Positions 10,350 through 60,742 of a stretch of 64,000 bases of DNA are shown here, piece by piece. Made by a program: the position numbers and the translations under genes. The notes beneath the pieces were generated by a model, which searched no databases, had not been told where the DNA came from, and saw only the letters and a program-made list of their open reading frames with translations. The stretch comes from Spiroplasma floricola 23-6 (lineage in GTDB: Bacteria; Bacillota_I; Bacilli_A; Mycoplasmatales; Mycoplasmataceae): the NCBI RefSeq assembly GCF_002813555.1, contig NZ_CP025057.1, positions 744,001 through 808,000 on the forward strand, read 5' to 3'. Each line of letters starts with the position of its first letter. Position 1 is the stretch's first letter.

Positions 10350-10382
10350 TTATGATATTAAAAAAAAAAAAAAAAAAGCAAT
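10350..10382 (-). promoter_or_regulatory. Possible phase-variable promoter with T18 spacer
   Basis: On the minus strand the order is TTGCTT (weak -35 match), a run of 18 T in total (10360-10377), AA, then TATCAT (5 of 6 to a -10 box, 10352-10357). The run fills the spacer, which is 18 bases as read. The start codon is 90 bases downstream. Homopolymer slippage would change the spacing and so the promoter strength. Promoter activity is inferred; the tract itself is plainly visible. Confidence 0.5.
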
Positions 10383-53300: not shown

Positions 53301-53330
53301 AATAAAACGAGATTTTTACCTCGTTTTACT
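53301..53330 (-). terminator. Rho-independent terminator
   Basis: AAAACGAG / CTCGTTTT hairpin with an 8-base loop and T tract. It directly follows the coding remnant at 53333-53500 and is 260 bases from the end of the PD-(D/E)XK gene. Confidence 0.75.
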
Positions 53331-53591: not shown

Positions 53592-54560
53592 TTAATATAT
53601 TTGCATAATTGAGTTTAAATCATAACTTTTAATATTAAATAAATCAATATTAAAAGATATATTTTTGATTTTATTATCATATTCTTTGATATATGGTATT
53701 TCTTTAATATTAATAAACTTTATTTTTATTTCTTCTTCTGAAAATCTTATAAGATTTCTTTTATCATGATTTTCTTTGAAATCTGTAAAAAATTCTTTCA
53801 TCCCTAATGCTAATGAAGGAATAGATAAATATCAATCAATTAAATCAATTAAGGTTTTTCCACCTTTTCTTACCTCCGAAATTTTTATTGCAGCAAAATA
53901 ATCATTAATATTTTCATTTATTTGATGATTTTTCAAAGAAAAAAGATCTTCATCACTTGTAGTAGTTTTAACTTCTATATTTATTTTTTTATTATTATGT
54001 GTATTAATTTCAAAATCAGTTTTAGATTCAAATTTTTTAAAATTATTGTACTCTTCTATATGATATCCTTCTAAAAATTCTTTTAAATATTCTCCACTAT
54101 TTTTTAATATTAATAATTCTCCTATTAAACCTATTTGAATTTTTTTCTTAATTTTAAAGACTAATCCAAATATTGTTTCCAAATTAACTACAGTATCAAA
54201 AATTGTTTGAGATAAATCATCTATATTAGAAATAGTTTTAAATACTAAATCTACAAAGTATTTTTCCATTTTAGGTTGTAAAATTAATACTTCTGCATCA
54301 CAGTCTTCATGTCCTTCAACATCGATATTCATTGTTTGACTAGGAAATCCAGAAAGTTTTTCATCTCCTTCAATACCATTGGAAATTGATTTTATTGATG
54401 GATAATATGAAAAGTTAGGCTTTTTTAAACTTTTTATATTTTTTGGTAAATTTACATTTTTATAAATTGGTTTTAAAATAAAATATGTGCTTGACTCAGG
54501 TAAAAGAAATAAAGAATATTCTCCTATATCTTTAATTGCTATAACATTTAGTTTTTCCAT
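53592..54560 (-). CDS. PD-(D/E)XK nuclease, DUF4420 type
   Basis: A 322-residue protein with the PD-(D/E)XK nuclease core: Glu148 in GLIGELLIL, Asp182 in SKTDFEI, and Glu196-x-Lys198 in INIEVKTTTSDEDLF. The layout fits the DUF4420 (PD-(D/E)XK motif protein) family that accompanies Z1 helicase and MORC/MutL-like ATPase genes in ATP-dependent restriction-like systems. TAGGAG lies 8 bases before the ATG, inside the end of the Z1 gene region. It is the last gene of the operon and its probable cutting subunit. Confidence 0.8.
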
Positions 54561-54569
54561 TGTTTTCTC

Positions 54570-55988
54570 CTAATTTGTTCATCTTAAAGAGAATTTTTTA
54601 AACTCCTCTTTAATATCTTCTGATTTTTTATCATTATGAATAGAATCTTCTTTGTACATTTTTCTCAATTTATTTTCAATAATTTCAATATCTTTATAAA
54701 AACTAATTGCTTTTTTTGAAGTAAATATATTCATATCTTTTATATAAGAACTTCTATATCCAAATCATCTAGCTCTTTGGAGTAATGTATCAGCAGTTAA
54801 TTCATTAGAGTTTGAGTGATTTAACATAATTTCAAATAATAATTCTTCAAAAGTAAATCCTCTTGACAATAAATTACCTCCAATAATTATTTCAGGACAT
54901 TTTTCTCTTAAGTACTCTATTCCTTCTCTTACTTCTTTAATCTTCAACTTATTAATAATTTTTATTAAATCTGACTTAGTAGTTTTCATTGAAAAAGTAT
55001 CATTAAAATCACTTGACATTAAAGCAATAGATAAATCACTTACTGCATCTCTAAAAATTTTTTCTAATCATATAATATGATTTTTACCAACATCAATATT
55101 TATAAGAAACTGAAAATTTCTATTATATTGGATACACTTATTAAGAAATTTCAAAATAACTTCTTTTATAAAATATTTTAATTCATTTGATAACATCTTA
55201 TTTTTAAAACTAAAGACAATTTGATCTTTGAGCTCTACATATAAATTATTATTATTAAAAATTTTTAGTCCACAATATGAATTTGGAGATACAAGGGGTA
55301 TTAAAAAATCAGGTTTAATTCAATCAGTATAATGTGTTATATTTGCATAAGGTGTAGCAGTAATTTGAAAATATAACACATTTTTAAAGCCACAGTTAAT
55401 AATATTTTCAATATTATTATTTATTGATCTATTTTTTTTACCTTTCTCAGAAGAAGCTTCATCACATTCATCATCAATAATAACTATTTTAAATTCAGAT
55501 TTTTGATTCTGAGTCATTTCCTCTAAATTTATTAATATATTTTTTATATTTTGTTTTATGCCATATAAAAACTCTGTTTTATTATCATTTTGAAAAAAAT
55601 TACTTTTATTTGAAAAAGGCAAAAAACGACTTTTTTGATTTGCTTGTTTAAATCTATTTATATTTTGCTTATTAAGATTATTTTTAGTTCCAGTCAAAAT
55701 AATAAATTTTTTAAAATCATTATCCCTTAAAAAAGAAGTTAAAAATATAATATTATTTGTTTTACCAGATTGTACCTCACCCAGTAGAAGAAATTTTTGT
55801 ATTTTTTTTTCATAAGAAAGTTTTTCACTTATATTCTTTAAATTTACTTCTATAACATCATCAATAGTATTTTGACCATAAGTTTTATTTTCTCTTATAA
55901 ATTTTTCTCTAAGTTCTAAGTAATTCGCTCCTTTAGAAAAATCATTATAATTCTTTTTTTTAGCTAAACTTATTTGTATTCTACTCAC
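54570..55988 (-). CDS. Z1-domain superfamily II-type helicase/ATPase
   Basis: A 472-residue protein with Walker A LLLGEVQSGKTNN (near residue 70), Walker B VIIDDECDEAS, the helicase-like ITATPYAN, and the Z1 block GGNLLSRGFTFEELLF followed by ADTLLQRARWFGYR. It is shorter than most Z1 proteins I know of. The likely start is a GTG at 55988, overlapping the MORC gene by 8 bases; a TTG at 56003 is in frame. In related loci the Z1 protein is thought to move along or remodel DNA for the nuclease. Confidence 0.82.
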
Positions 55989-57768
55989 CTTCAATACCCT
56001 CAATCAATTCTTTAAATCTTTTATTTTTTTCTTGATTAGTTTTATATTTAATCAATTCACACATAAGTAGTTTTATTAATGGATTAAATAATATTGAAAA
56101 ATGTTCATCTTTTAGATTATTTTTAAATCCATAGAATTCTTTGTTAAGAACAATAACAAATAATATTGAGTTATCTTCACAAGGTAAAGCTCTTGTTTTA
56201 AATAACTTATGTTTATTTCCAAATTGACCTTCTGGATGGCAAACTATTTTAAAAGCACTTTCTTCTTTTTCATTTACAACTATAAAACCATTTCTAAATC
56301 TTTCACCATCTGTATCATTTATTTTTAATTCTTCTGTAATTACAGAATGATTCTCTAAAATTTTATTTTTATTAATTTCATTTGCGAATCTATCAATTTC
56401 TTGTTGAAACAGCTTATCTTCAAGAAGCTGATCATTTTTATAAAAAATAATATCCAATATTTTATCAAAAAGTGGAGACAGATAATTTTTAAAAATGTCT
56501 GATAAAGTTTTTTCAATATCCTCTTTAACTGTTCCATGAAATCCCATTTTATTATTATCCACTCTAAATATTTTCTTATTATTAAGGTCAATTTCGCCAA
56601 TAAATCTTTTAGTTACTTTATAACTACTATCACTTAGGGCTTTTGGATAAGAAAGTCATGTTAAATTACTCTTTTCAGAATTTGGACCTGAAATAATAGC
56701 TCTATCATCTTGATAAACTGTTAAACCATTATATTTTAGTAAACTACTATTATTACCTATAAAACCAAAAGTGAAGGGTATCCTTTCATTTTCATAATAG
56801 TTATAGGGTAATCTAAAAAAAGTTTTAAATTTAAGTTCTTCTTGATTTTCAAATTTTTCAATTATCATTCCATAGGTTATATCTTCTAAACCCTCAATTA
56901 CATTGTTTCAAGAATCTGCAAATGCATTTTTAATTTCTTTCATTGATTTAATATAAAATTTTGATTTATTAATATTAATTTTTTCCTTATCAGATACTTT
57001 AAACTCATAATCCTGTCTTTCTTTGGAATTTTTTATATACATATCAGGTATTTTTGATTTTGTTATTTCAACAGGAACTTTATTTGGCATTTCTTCATCA
57101 CCATCTTCATTAATATAACTCATATTTATAGATAAAAAGTTTTTCTTTATATATCTTGAATATCTACAAGCTAACTGTTCTTCTAAAGCTTTACCCTCGT
57201 TTTTAGTACCTTTATTAAACATTCTTTTTTCATATCTTTCTGAGTGAACAGTATCTATATGAAATTTATCTATTTTTATAATTGTTCCATGATCATAATT
57301 GAATTGTATACCAGATTCCTTTTTAATGTTTATATCCTTAGTATCATAAAAATTAAAATTTTTTCCCTTTAATTTGTCTATATCAAGATTTATCATATAT
57401 GGAAAATCATCTTCAATACTTTTCGTAAAAATTCTTAATCTTTTACCAAATCATATTGCTGCCATTTTCATTCCAACTCCAAACATATTTAAAGAGTTTC
57501 CTTGTTCACTTTCATCTTTTCCATTTCTAATTGCAATACTTCTATTTTTATAAGCAATACCAGCTGCATTATCAATTATATAAATTGCCTTTTCTAACAT
57601 GTTAACAATTATTTTAACTTCAACATATTCAAAATTATTATCTATTGCACTTTGAATTGAATTATCTATAAATTCAGAAATCATATATATATGACTTGTT
57701 GTTTTATCAATGTAACCAAGAAATTCTCTATTCGTTCTTGGTATTTCATTTTCATTTATTTTACTCAT
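55981..57768 (-). CDS. MORC/MutL-like GHKL ATPase
   Basis: A 595-residue protein with a GHKL ATPase head: N box SEFIDNSIQSA (catalytic Glu32, Asn36), IIDNAAGI (G1, 65-71) and NMFGVGMKMAA (G2, 94-104), followed by a transducer-like region and a long C-terminal part. Such MORC-like ATPases form DNA clamps. Its ATG abuts the stop codon of the DndC gene. In bacteria this family is linked to Z1 helicases and PD-(D/E)XK nucleases, as here. Confidence 0.85.
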
Positions 57769-59202
57769 TTAATTGTACCCCTTTATTTGCTCAAACAATC
57801 CACTAATCTTTTCATCAAGATACCTATCATTTTCTAATGCTTCCATTACTATTTTAAAAATTTCTTTTATTTTATTTATTTCCTCATCTGAAATAATCTC
57901 AATTTTATATTTCTTCATCGCTTTTTTTAATTTAAGAATTTCTATAAGTAGTTCTTTTCTATAGTCTAATGTATATGGACCTAAACCAACTATTGATAAT
58001 TTATCATTATCTAAGTTTTTGTCTAATTTAATTACAAAATTGAATAATGGTATTTCTCCCTCTACATAAGGATTTATTTTACGTTGATCAACTTTTTTTC
58101 GATATTCTGATTCACTAATTATTTTAAAAACTTTTTTATTATATTTTAATTTTGTAAAATCTTCGTTAATTTCACCAAATATAATCTCTTCTCTTCCCTC
58201 TTTTTTTGGTAAATAATAAATTCCATTTTTAAACTTTAAATCCATATATCTATATTTAACTAAGGTTACAATTTTTTTATTTTTCATAATTCTTAAGGAA
58301 CCATGATATCTATTTTTTAGTAAATCTCTTTCTTTCATTAATTTTTCTCTAAAACTCATAAGTGGTTGTAGTCAATCTTGACCTGAATTTATAAAACCCT
58401 GAAGTGATTTGTCTTGAGTAACAACAGGACAAAGTCAACAACCTCATCTAGAATTTCCACAACCCTTTTGCAATTTATCATCTAAACTCGATGGACATTC
58501 TCCTGTTCCCACCGATGAATCTTCATAAAGAATAGATAATTTATCATTATTTTTTTTAAAAAAATTAATATTGCTTTCAGCTAAATATTTTCATATATCA
58601 TAAAGTTGAAATTCTTCAATTGGTGAGAATATATATTTTCCATTAGTATTATTAATTCTCAAATCTGAATCTTCAATTTTGGTTTTATCCATTTTTATAT
58701 CTCTACTTAAAGATTCTCCTTTACGAACACCTAAAACAGTAAGTATTTCTTTTTTACTTTTTTTAGATATTTCTTCCATATAATCATTCATAGGTTTAAT
58801 TTTTAATCTATCAGTACATCATCTAAAACTTTGATTAGGTAGTGGATATCCTCTACCTATTAAATTTACTCAAAAAGTCTCATTAATATCTGGTGTAACT
58901 TTAAATACTTCCACAGGTAGTTGTTTTTCATCTGCATAAGTTTGCAAAATTTCTAGTGAATTATTTAATTGTTCCAATACAATTGGGTTTTCAATTAAAG
59001 TATCAGAACTAACAATATAAATTTTATTTTTTAATTTTGTTTTTATCTCTGTTAATGATTCTAATATTATTTGAACTAATACTGATGAATCTTTTCCACC
59101 AGAAAAACCAATCATTCAATCATAATTACATTCTCTATAAACTTTTTTTATTTTTTCTTTTACTATCTTAACTTTTTTAAGATATATATCTTCTCTGTTC
59201 AT
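57769..59202 (-). CDS. dndC: DndC-like sulfur-transfer (PAPS reductase-family) enzyme
   Basis: A 477-residue protein of the adenine-nucleotide alpha hydrolase / PAPS reductase superfamily. The P-loop-like SGGKDSS is at residues 34-40; RWCTDRLKIKP follows; the DndC-type cysteine block is GECPSS and then CGNSRWGCWLCPVVTQDKS. In Dnd systems DndC activates DNA for phosphorothioate insertion. None of dndB, dndD or dndE is in the window; a cellular cysteine desulfurase could replace dndA. It lies between the 58-residue gene and the MORC gene, all in tight succession. Confidence 0.85.
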
Positions 59203-59203
59203 T

Positions 59204-59380
59204 TTAATAACCCTTATTAGTTTTTTTATTATTATACCTATCATAGTATGCAATTGCAAAAATATTTTTATTTATATTTTTCATATACAATTCCTCTTTC
59301 TTTTCTAAAGAATAGAATAAAACTGATCTTATTCATACTAAACTAAGATTATTTATTGATAAACTTAATATTTTTTTCAT
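59204..59380 (-). CDS. Small protein leading the DndC-MORC-Z1 operon, 58 aa
   Basis: A 58-residue reading (MKKILSLSINNLSLVWIRSV, then a charged part with KNINKNIFAIAYYDRY) with an excellent ribosome site, AAAAGGAGGAAA, directly before its ATG. Its stop codon is 1 base before the DndC ATG, so the two are translationally coupled. One Trp is TGA-coded. It has no recognised family. It may be a regulator or subunit of the system, or only a leader for coupling. Confidence 0.6.
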
Positions 59381-59437
59381 TTTCCTCCTTTTATAAAAGC
59401 TATTAAAATACAAATAAACAATTCAAATTGATATCAA

Positions 59438-59467
59438 TGATTATATAAAAAAAAAAAAAAAATCAAG
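59438..59467 (-). promoter_or_regulatory. Possible phase-variable promoter with T16 spacer
   Basis: On the minus strand: TTGATT (-35-like, 59461-59466), then T14 and A as a 15-base spacer, then a perfect TATAAT (59440-59445). The full T run is 16 bases (59447-59462). The start codon of the 58-residue gene is about 60 bases downstream. Gain of two T would bring the spacer to 17. Position and motif match make this the best promoter candidate for the defence operon. Confidence 0.65.
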
Positions 59468-59551
59468 TTTATTGATTTTATTCTATTAAGGAATGTTCCC
59501 CCCCCCATTTAGGCAACAATTTTTATACAATAATAGAAAAGGATAAAGTAT

Positions 59552-59881
59552 ATGGCAAAAAAAGGACAAAAGTTTAGAAAGTGAACTCAAGAAGAAAAAG
59601 AAAAAATTATTGAATTAAGTTTGAATGGTTATTCTCTAAAGGAAATAGCATTAAAATTTAACTCAACTACAGGATCAATTGGAACAATAATAAACAAATA
59701 CAAAAATACAGATATTGGTGATTCAAAAACTCGTTTACCTTATAAAATAGATTACAGTATATCTCAAAAGGCAAATGATCTGTTTGTAGGAATTCTATTT
59801 GATTACAATAAGGAATTAATTAAGGAGAATGATATTTTAAAAAAGCAATGAGCCTCCAAGGCCAAAACCAAAAAGAAATAG
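59552..59881 (+). CDS. IS3 transposase OrfA
   Basis: A 109-residue protein with a helix-turn-helix (SLNGYSLKEIALKFNSTTGS, residues about 24-43) that binds the IS ends, and a C-terminal coiled part. AAAGGAT precedes the ATG. Translation ends in TAG after one TGA Trp; a -1 frameshift at 59839-59845 gives the OrfAB fusion. Confidence 0.8.
59839..59845 (+). other. Programmed -1 frameshift site
   Basis: A AAA AAG heptamer in the OrfA zero frame (TTA AAA AAG). A one-base backward slip leads to AAA GCA ATG, the frame of OrfB. This is the classical IS3 signal. Confidence 0.8.
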
Positions 59882-60702
59882 TTCAACAATTATTGATAAA
59901 TACCAAGAGCAATAGAACAATGATTTGTAAAATTTTAAATATTAATAGAACATCAACATATAAAAAAAATAAAACTTTAATGAATTTCCTGGATGATACA
60001 AGAATTATGAATTTAGTTATTTCAGAAATTGAAAGGAATAATTTCCTTAGTGCTTATAGTGCTAAAAGATGAGCCCTATATTTTAAATTAAATTATATTG
60101 ACCCTTTCAGAATTAATCATAAAAAATTAGAACGTATATTTAAAAAATTTAATCATATTGCATATTACATTAAGAAACAATCTAAACATGAGATTAAAAG
60201 ATATAACGAAACTATTAGAAAGAATTATTTAAAAGAAGCAAAAGAAATTGGTTTTGAAAATATTTGAACTAGTGATATAACTGAATTTTCAGTTAAAACA
60301 AAAAAAGGTTATATTTGCACAGTTCAAGATAATTTAACTGGAGAAATAATAGGAAAATCTAAAAGAATTGATAATCAAAAAACAGATTTTGTTCTTGAAG
60401 CTGTAGAAATGGCATATAAAAATAAAAAATATTTAGGTTCAATATTATTACATTCAGATAATGGAAATCAATATACCTCTCTGGATTACATAAGTTTATG
60501 TAATGATTTACAAATTATTAGAAGCTATTCAAAACCAGGAACACCTCATCATAATGGTAAACATGAAAGTTTTCATGGTCGTTTAAAAGATGAAACTATA
60601 AGAACATGTCATATTGAAAACATTAATCAATGTATGGAAATAGCATGAGCATGATTGGACTTTTATAATAATGATAGAATTAGAATGAATAAAAAATGAT
60701 AA
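59848..60702 (+). CDS. IS3 transposase OrfB (DDE integrase)
   Basis: A 284-residue catalytic part with the DDE triad: Asp143 in WTSDITEF, Asp204 in LHSDNGNQYTS, and Glu240 in HHNGKHESFHGRLKDE. It resembles the IS150 subgroup. It ends at RIRMNKKW, so the usual final SPxxYR-like stretch is missing; the stop is followed by a run of A. The element may thus be slightly truncated at its 3' end or simply variant. Confidence 0.85.
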
Positions 60703-60712
60703 AAAAAAAAAA

Positions 60713-60742
60713 AAAACGTTCCCAATTTGGGGGGAACGTTGT
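60713..60742. terminator. Hairpin at IS right end
   Basis: AACGTTCCC-AATTTGGG-GGGAACGTT forms a stem including the inverted repeat. It follows an A16 run. It may insulate the element from its surroundings. Confidence 0.5.

Follow-up and report, generated by a model that had tools for sequence, protein, structure and literature searches.

In Spiroplasma floricola 23-6, a probable phage-defence operon is preceded by a promoter-like sequence whose spacer consists almost entirely of thymines, which raises two questions: whether slippage in this homopolymer could vary defence expression, and how a defence operon would have come under such control. The original prediction, made from a 64,000-nucleotide stretch of the genome (the window; NZ_CP025057.1, positions 744,001 to 808,000), was that a homopolymer promoter of the vlp type switches a whole sulfur-modification/restriction operon. 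The predicted letters are indeed present on the minus strand at 59466-59440, namely TTGATT, T14+A as a 15-base spacer within a 16-base T run, and TATAAT, and the following features can be delineated around them:

59440..59466, minus strand: T-run promoter, with TTGATT (59466..59461), the 15-bp spacer T14+A (59460..59446) and TATAAT (59445..59440)
59447..59462, minus strand: T16 homopolymer (A16 on the plus strand)
59459..59479, minus strand: weak hairpin AAAATCAA-TAAAC-TTGATTTT, the 3' arm of which contains the -35 element and runs into the T run

The spacer length equals the length of the T run (16) minus 1, and the homopolymer occupies the gap between the -35 and -10 elements, the arrangement that characterizes vlp-type contingency promoters.

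The genes downstream of this promoter are:

57769..59202, minus strand: dndC homologue (TIGR03183, 339 bits against a cut-off of 290)
55981..57768, minus strand: MutL/HSP90-like ATPase (HATPase_c_3; weak MzaB match)
54570..56060, minus strand: Z1-domain helicase-like protein (MzaC-like, under the equivalog cut-off)
53592..54560, minus strand: DUF4420 PD-(D/E)XK protein (Pfam match slightly below the gathering score)
53303..53328, strand not given: hairpin in the gap downstream of the four-gene unit

These four genes are a probable phage-defence operon. It is followed by a 376-bp gap, containing the hairpin, and then by two D12 methylases and an HNH gene, which, from their arrangement, look like a separate unit. 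The dndC gene scores above the TIGR03183 cut-off, but a scan of seven neighbouring genes yielded no match to DndD or DndE, so that phosphorothioation by this operon is not established. In more distant congeners, a related set of genes is found in which dndC is placed after the ATPase and Z1 genes. The exact promoter pattern and DndC had no match in the genome contig collection, which possibly does not include the source genome.

The T-run promoter belongs to a multigene lipoprotein promoter family, which supports the vlp-like part of the prediction. A leader query of 273 bp has more than 20 copies in the genome, and the notion of a one-off sequence was therefore rejected; the exact 26-mer T14ATATAATCATTG has one further occurrence in the 1.28 Mb genome, ahead of a lipoprotein gene. 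The family comprises about 22 paralogous copies, which combine TTGAC, TTGA or TTGC with T15-18, mostly ATAAT, and a shared downstream block; in nearly all of them, a strong RBS and a lipoprotein ORF of the type MKKLLSVLATIG..VACG follow. The T run is 16 long in 15 copies, 17 in five, and 15 and 18 in one each, lengths that were read from one assembly, with one genome per species compared and homopolymer calls being error-prone. The implied spacers are mostly 14-15, away from the sigma-70 optimum, and the concentration of 15 of the 22 copies at exactly T16 is a narrower spread than free switching might produce. A sister species (G151) carries the same promoter family, with T16 in all 11 aligned copies; TTGAC/TTGC and ATAAT/ACAAT are kept there, and the upstream sequence has diverged.

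Long A/T runs are a genome-wide class. The number of A/T runs of at least 16 expected in 64 kb, according to a first-order Markov model of the window, is about 0.2, and 3 were observed; the run at 59447-59462 can be considered above chance because it has homologues, 22 copies (itself included) with common borders. The other long runs inside the window lie within an IS element near 60701-60716 and near 10376 (T18). Across the genome, which is translated with TGA as tryptophan (relatives' genomes measure 0.7-2.2 Mb), 83 of the 85 T runs of at least 10 reach at least 15, and the distribution of A/T runs in 191 kb is sharply bimodal, with seven runs of length 9, none of 10-14 and 43 of 15-18. A search of 60 family genomes revealed the same surplus of long over medium runs in many of them. 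Because the class is genome-wide, a length near 16 is a general property of these runs and is not peculiar to the dnd promoter.

What sets long runs apart ahead of genes is their association with TTG, which they abut in 27 of 44 cases in the relative G141, compared to 13 of 146 short runs (Fisher p 4e-12), and in 22 of 65 cases in the source genome, compared to 28 of 377 short runs (p 7e-8, a value inflated by paralogues). Runs of at least 15 that abut TTG are, by this measure, a wider class of putative promoters. The genes downstream encode lipoproteins, PTS components, an acyltransferase, an ABC transporter and, in the source genome, a C5 cytosine DNA methylase (L168:2-967, genome 872195 region), which is preceded by TTGCAA-A16-...-TAAAAT with a spacer of 17, 32 bp before the ATG. 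A short nucleotidyltransferase fragment (L148:1000-1340, genome 226298) lies downstream of facing T16 and A15 runs.

The sequence between the T-run promoter and dndC indicates how the operon would have acquired it:

59359..59439, minus strand: 5' leader homologous to lipoprotein genes, with the ATCAATTTGAATTGTTTATTTG block and the RBS AAAGGAGGAAA
59204..59380, minus strand: remnant lipoprotein start (MKKILS...) fused to a 58-aa frame that stops just ahead of the dndC ATG at 59202
59231..59259, minus strand: inner promoter-like site TTGCAA-17-TATAAT, 28 bp before dndC

The remnant start reads ATGAAAAAAATATTAAGT, and the dnd leader ceases to resemble the lipoprotein leaders near 59359, about 20 bases past the remnant start codon (59381). 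This homology break marks the capture of a lipoprotein promoter by the DndC operon; most likely, recombination within a lipoprotein gene placed the homopolymer-spacer promoter upstream of the four genes.

The inner site matches the position of the promoters of the orthologous operons in G141 and G149. Four-gene orthologues are present in G141, G149 and G150, with 63-65% identity in DndC. The G149 operon has TTGCTT-18-TATAAT, and no homopolymer tract was detected upstream of the G149 and G150 operons, that is, in two of the four orthologous operons. The G141 operon is preceded, 25 bp before its ATG and with no second promoter in between, by TTGCAA-A15TC-TACAAT with a spacer of 17, the A-run of which is the sole run of at least 10 within that 20 kb; this homopolymer spacer is independent of that in the T16 promoter. 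In a simple scan, the inner site of the window scores no better than chance, so that the case for it rests on position, which suggests that it is the ancestral promoter and that the T16 promoter is a later addition.

An IS3-family element lies divergently from the operon, at 59491..60741 on the plus strand; it belongs to a set of 11 near-identical copies with just six variable core columns. The internal A-run of this element is 16 long in eight of the 11 copies and 17 in three, differences that suggest slippage, although homopolymer sequencing error is another possible source, and the comparison, like that among the promoter paralogues, is between different loci. The left end of the element is located immediately upstream of a T-run promoter in 10 of the 11 copies, with unrelated right flanks, suggesting that this family inserts in a targeted fashion at T-run promoters. 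The terminus of the copy in the window has a C9 run (59498-59506), and the other copies have C6.

The explanation that we favour, by a modest degree of confidence, is that the captured lipoprotein-type promoter is tunable by slippage and adds to a baseline of DndC operon expression. The spacer would shift by single bases through slipped-strand replication of the T run, such that T18 would give 17 bp in place of the 15 bp of the assembled T16, and with such changes in spacer length, strong transcription of the operon from the T-run promoter would occur in a fraction of the cells. The baseline is probably supplied by the predicted ordinary promoter next to dndC, and the T-run promoter would therefore tune expression rather than shut it off. 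The vlp, maa2 and vmm precedents speak for this explanation; the vpma T-tract of Mycoplasma agalactiae (PMC2268961) and the lack of a tract in G149 and G150 speak against it. The complete ON/OFF switching of the whole operon that was originally proposed, in which the T-run promoter would act alone, appears improbable: it draws on the lipoprotein promoter family, on the vlp, maa2 and vmm precedents (PMC2268961) and on the tight four-gene unit downstream, but a promoter-like site adjoins dndC within the presumed switch, and the methylase and HNH genes lie outside the four-gene unit, beyond the 376-bp gap. A better contender, albeit still unlikely, is a captured promoter with an inert tract, which would be either an A-tract spacer of constant length or a leftover of the lipoprotein locus, with constitutive expression from the inner promoter. 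Consistent with this possibility, the inner site TTGCAA-17-TATAAT stands where G141 and G149 have their promoters, 28 bp ahead of dndC, the T-tract of vpma was demonstrated not to switch (PMC2268961), and lengths concentrate at 16-17 in both the promoters and the IS-internal tracts, as fits a mutational equilibrium. However, the -35 and -10 borders are preserved among the paralogues and in the sister species, and the orthologous G141 operon has its own homopolymer spacer.

The T16 run could also be primarily the U-tract of an intrinsic terminator formed with the hairpin AAAATCAA..TTGATTTT, the promoter match being secondary. Most of the 22 copies have a hairpin ahead of the run, typically with the arms AAAGTCAA..TTGACTTT, the change from GTCAA/TTGAC to ATCAA/TTGAT in the dnd copy is paired, and the IS-internal T16 tracts come after a strong hairpin. 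Nevertheless, the fold at 59459..59479 is weak (-5.1 kcal/mol, z -1.2), and TTG is abutted far more often by long than by short runs. The sister-species copies have no hairpin or a short one but keep TTGAC/TTGC and ATAAT; with the promoter borders conserved and the hairpin not, a terminator as the sole reading is disfavoured, and we consider a primarily terminator role of the run very improbable. Under the favoured explanation, too, the hairpin ahead of the T run could double as a weak terminator.

If the tract is active, a wall-less bacterium would vary its phage defence through the same slippage promoters that serve its surface proteins, a type of control that the operon would have gained via capture of a lipoprotein promoter, and the cell may in this way vary defence expression randomly. 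With dozens of similar promoters per genome, there is a ready set of loci of the same kind. More tentatively, and in our judgement possible rather than probable, stochastic promoters with A/T spacers of about 16 would be genus-wide and include defence genes, with DndC operons twice independently (the T16 capture and the native A17 of G141) and the C5 methylase, resulting in populations mixed in both defence and surface antigens.

In the literature collection searched, we found nothing directly relevant on homopolymer phase variation or Dnd in Spiroplasma, or on defence by Z1, MutL and DndC proteins. The gene list of the MZA anti-phage system includes a MutL-like ATPase (MzaB), a Z1 protein (MzaC) and an AIPR protein. 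The DndC operon resembles it in combining a MutL-like ATPase and a Z1 protein within one operon, but differs in that it has DndC, its matches are far below the family equivalog cut-offs (21 against 850 bits for MzaB and 69 against 1500 bits for MzaC), and no AIPR protein appeared in the Pfam results for the operon and the neighbouring genes.

On the promoter side, the T16 sequence is a putative variant of the vlp/maa2/vmm-type contingency promoters, located ahead of a DndC operon. The vlp genes of Mycoplasma hyorhinis have a poly-A tract in the promoter (Citti and Wise 1995, as cited in PMC10502178 and PMC2268961), and indels in the spacers of vlp, maa2 and vmm switch transcription (PMC2268961). 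The likeness to vlp extends to the homopolymer between -35 and -10, the multicopy lipoprotein family and control by slippage, whereas the T16 copy described here drives a DndC-type operon, for which switching is a candidate property. Promoter-spacer indels likewise alter transcription in maa2 of Mycoplasma arthritidis and vmm of M. mycoides, but the vmm spacer is a dinucleotide repeat, and both systems govern surface proteins, unlike the DndC operon (PMC2268961). In vpma of Mycoplasma agalactiae, a T-tract immediately precedes the -10 box of a lipoprotein promoter, as in the T16 promoter, yet this tract was shown not to cause variation, and switching is effected by Xer1 recombination (PMC2268961). 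Finally, the phase-variable R-M genes of M. agalactiae are likewise mollicute DNA-modification genes under short-repeat or homopolymer slippage, although there, poly(G) or poly(GA) tracts cause frameshifts within the coding sequence, whereas at the DndC operon, the repeat lies in the promoter spacer (PMC9465063).
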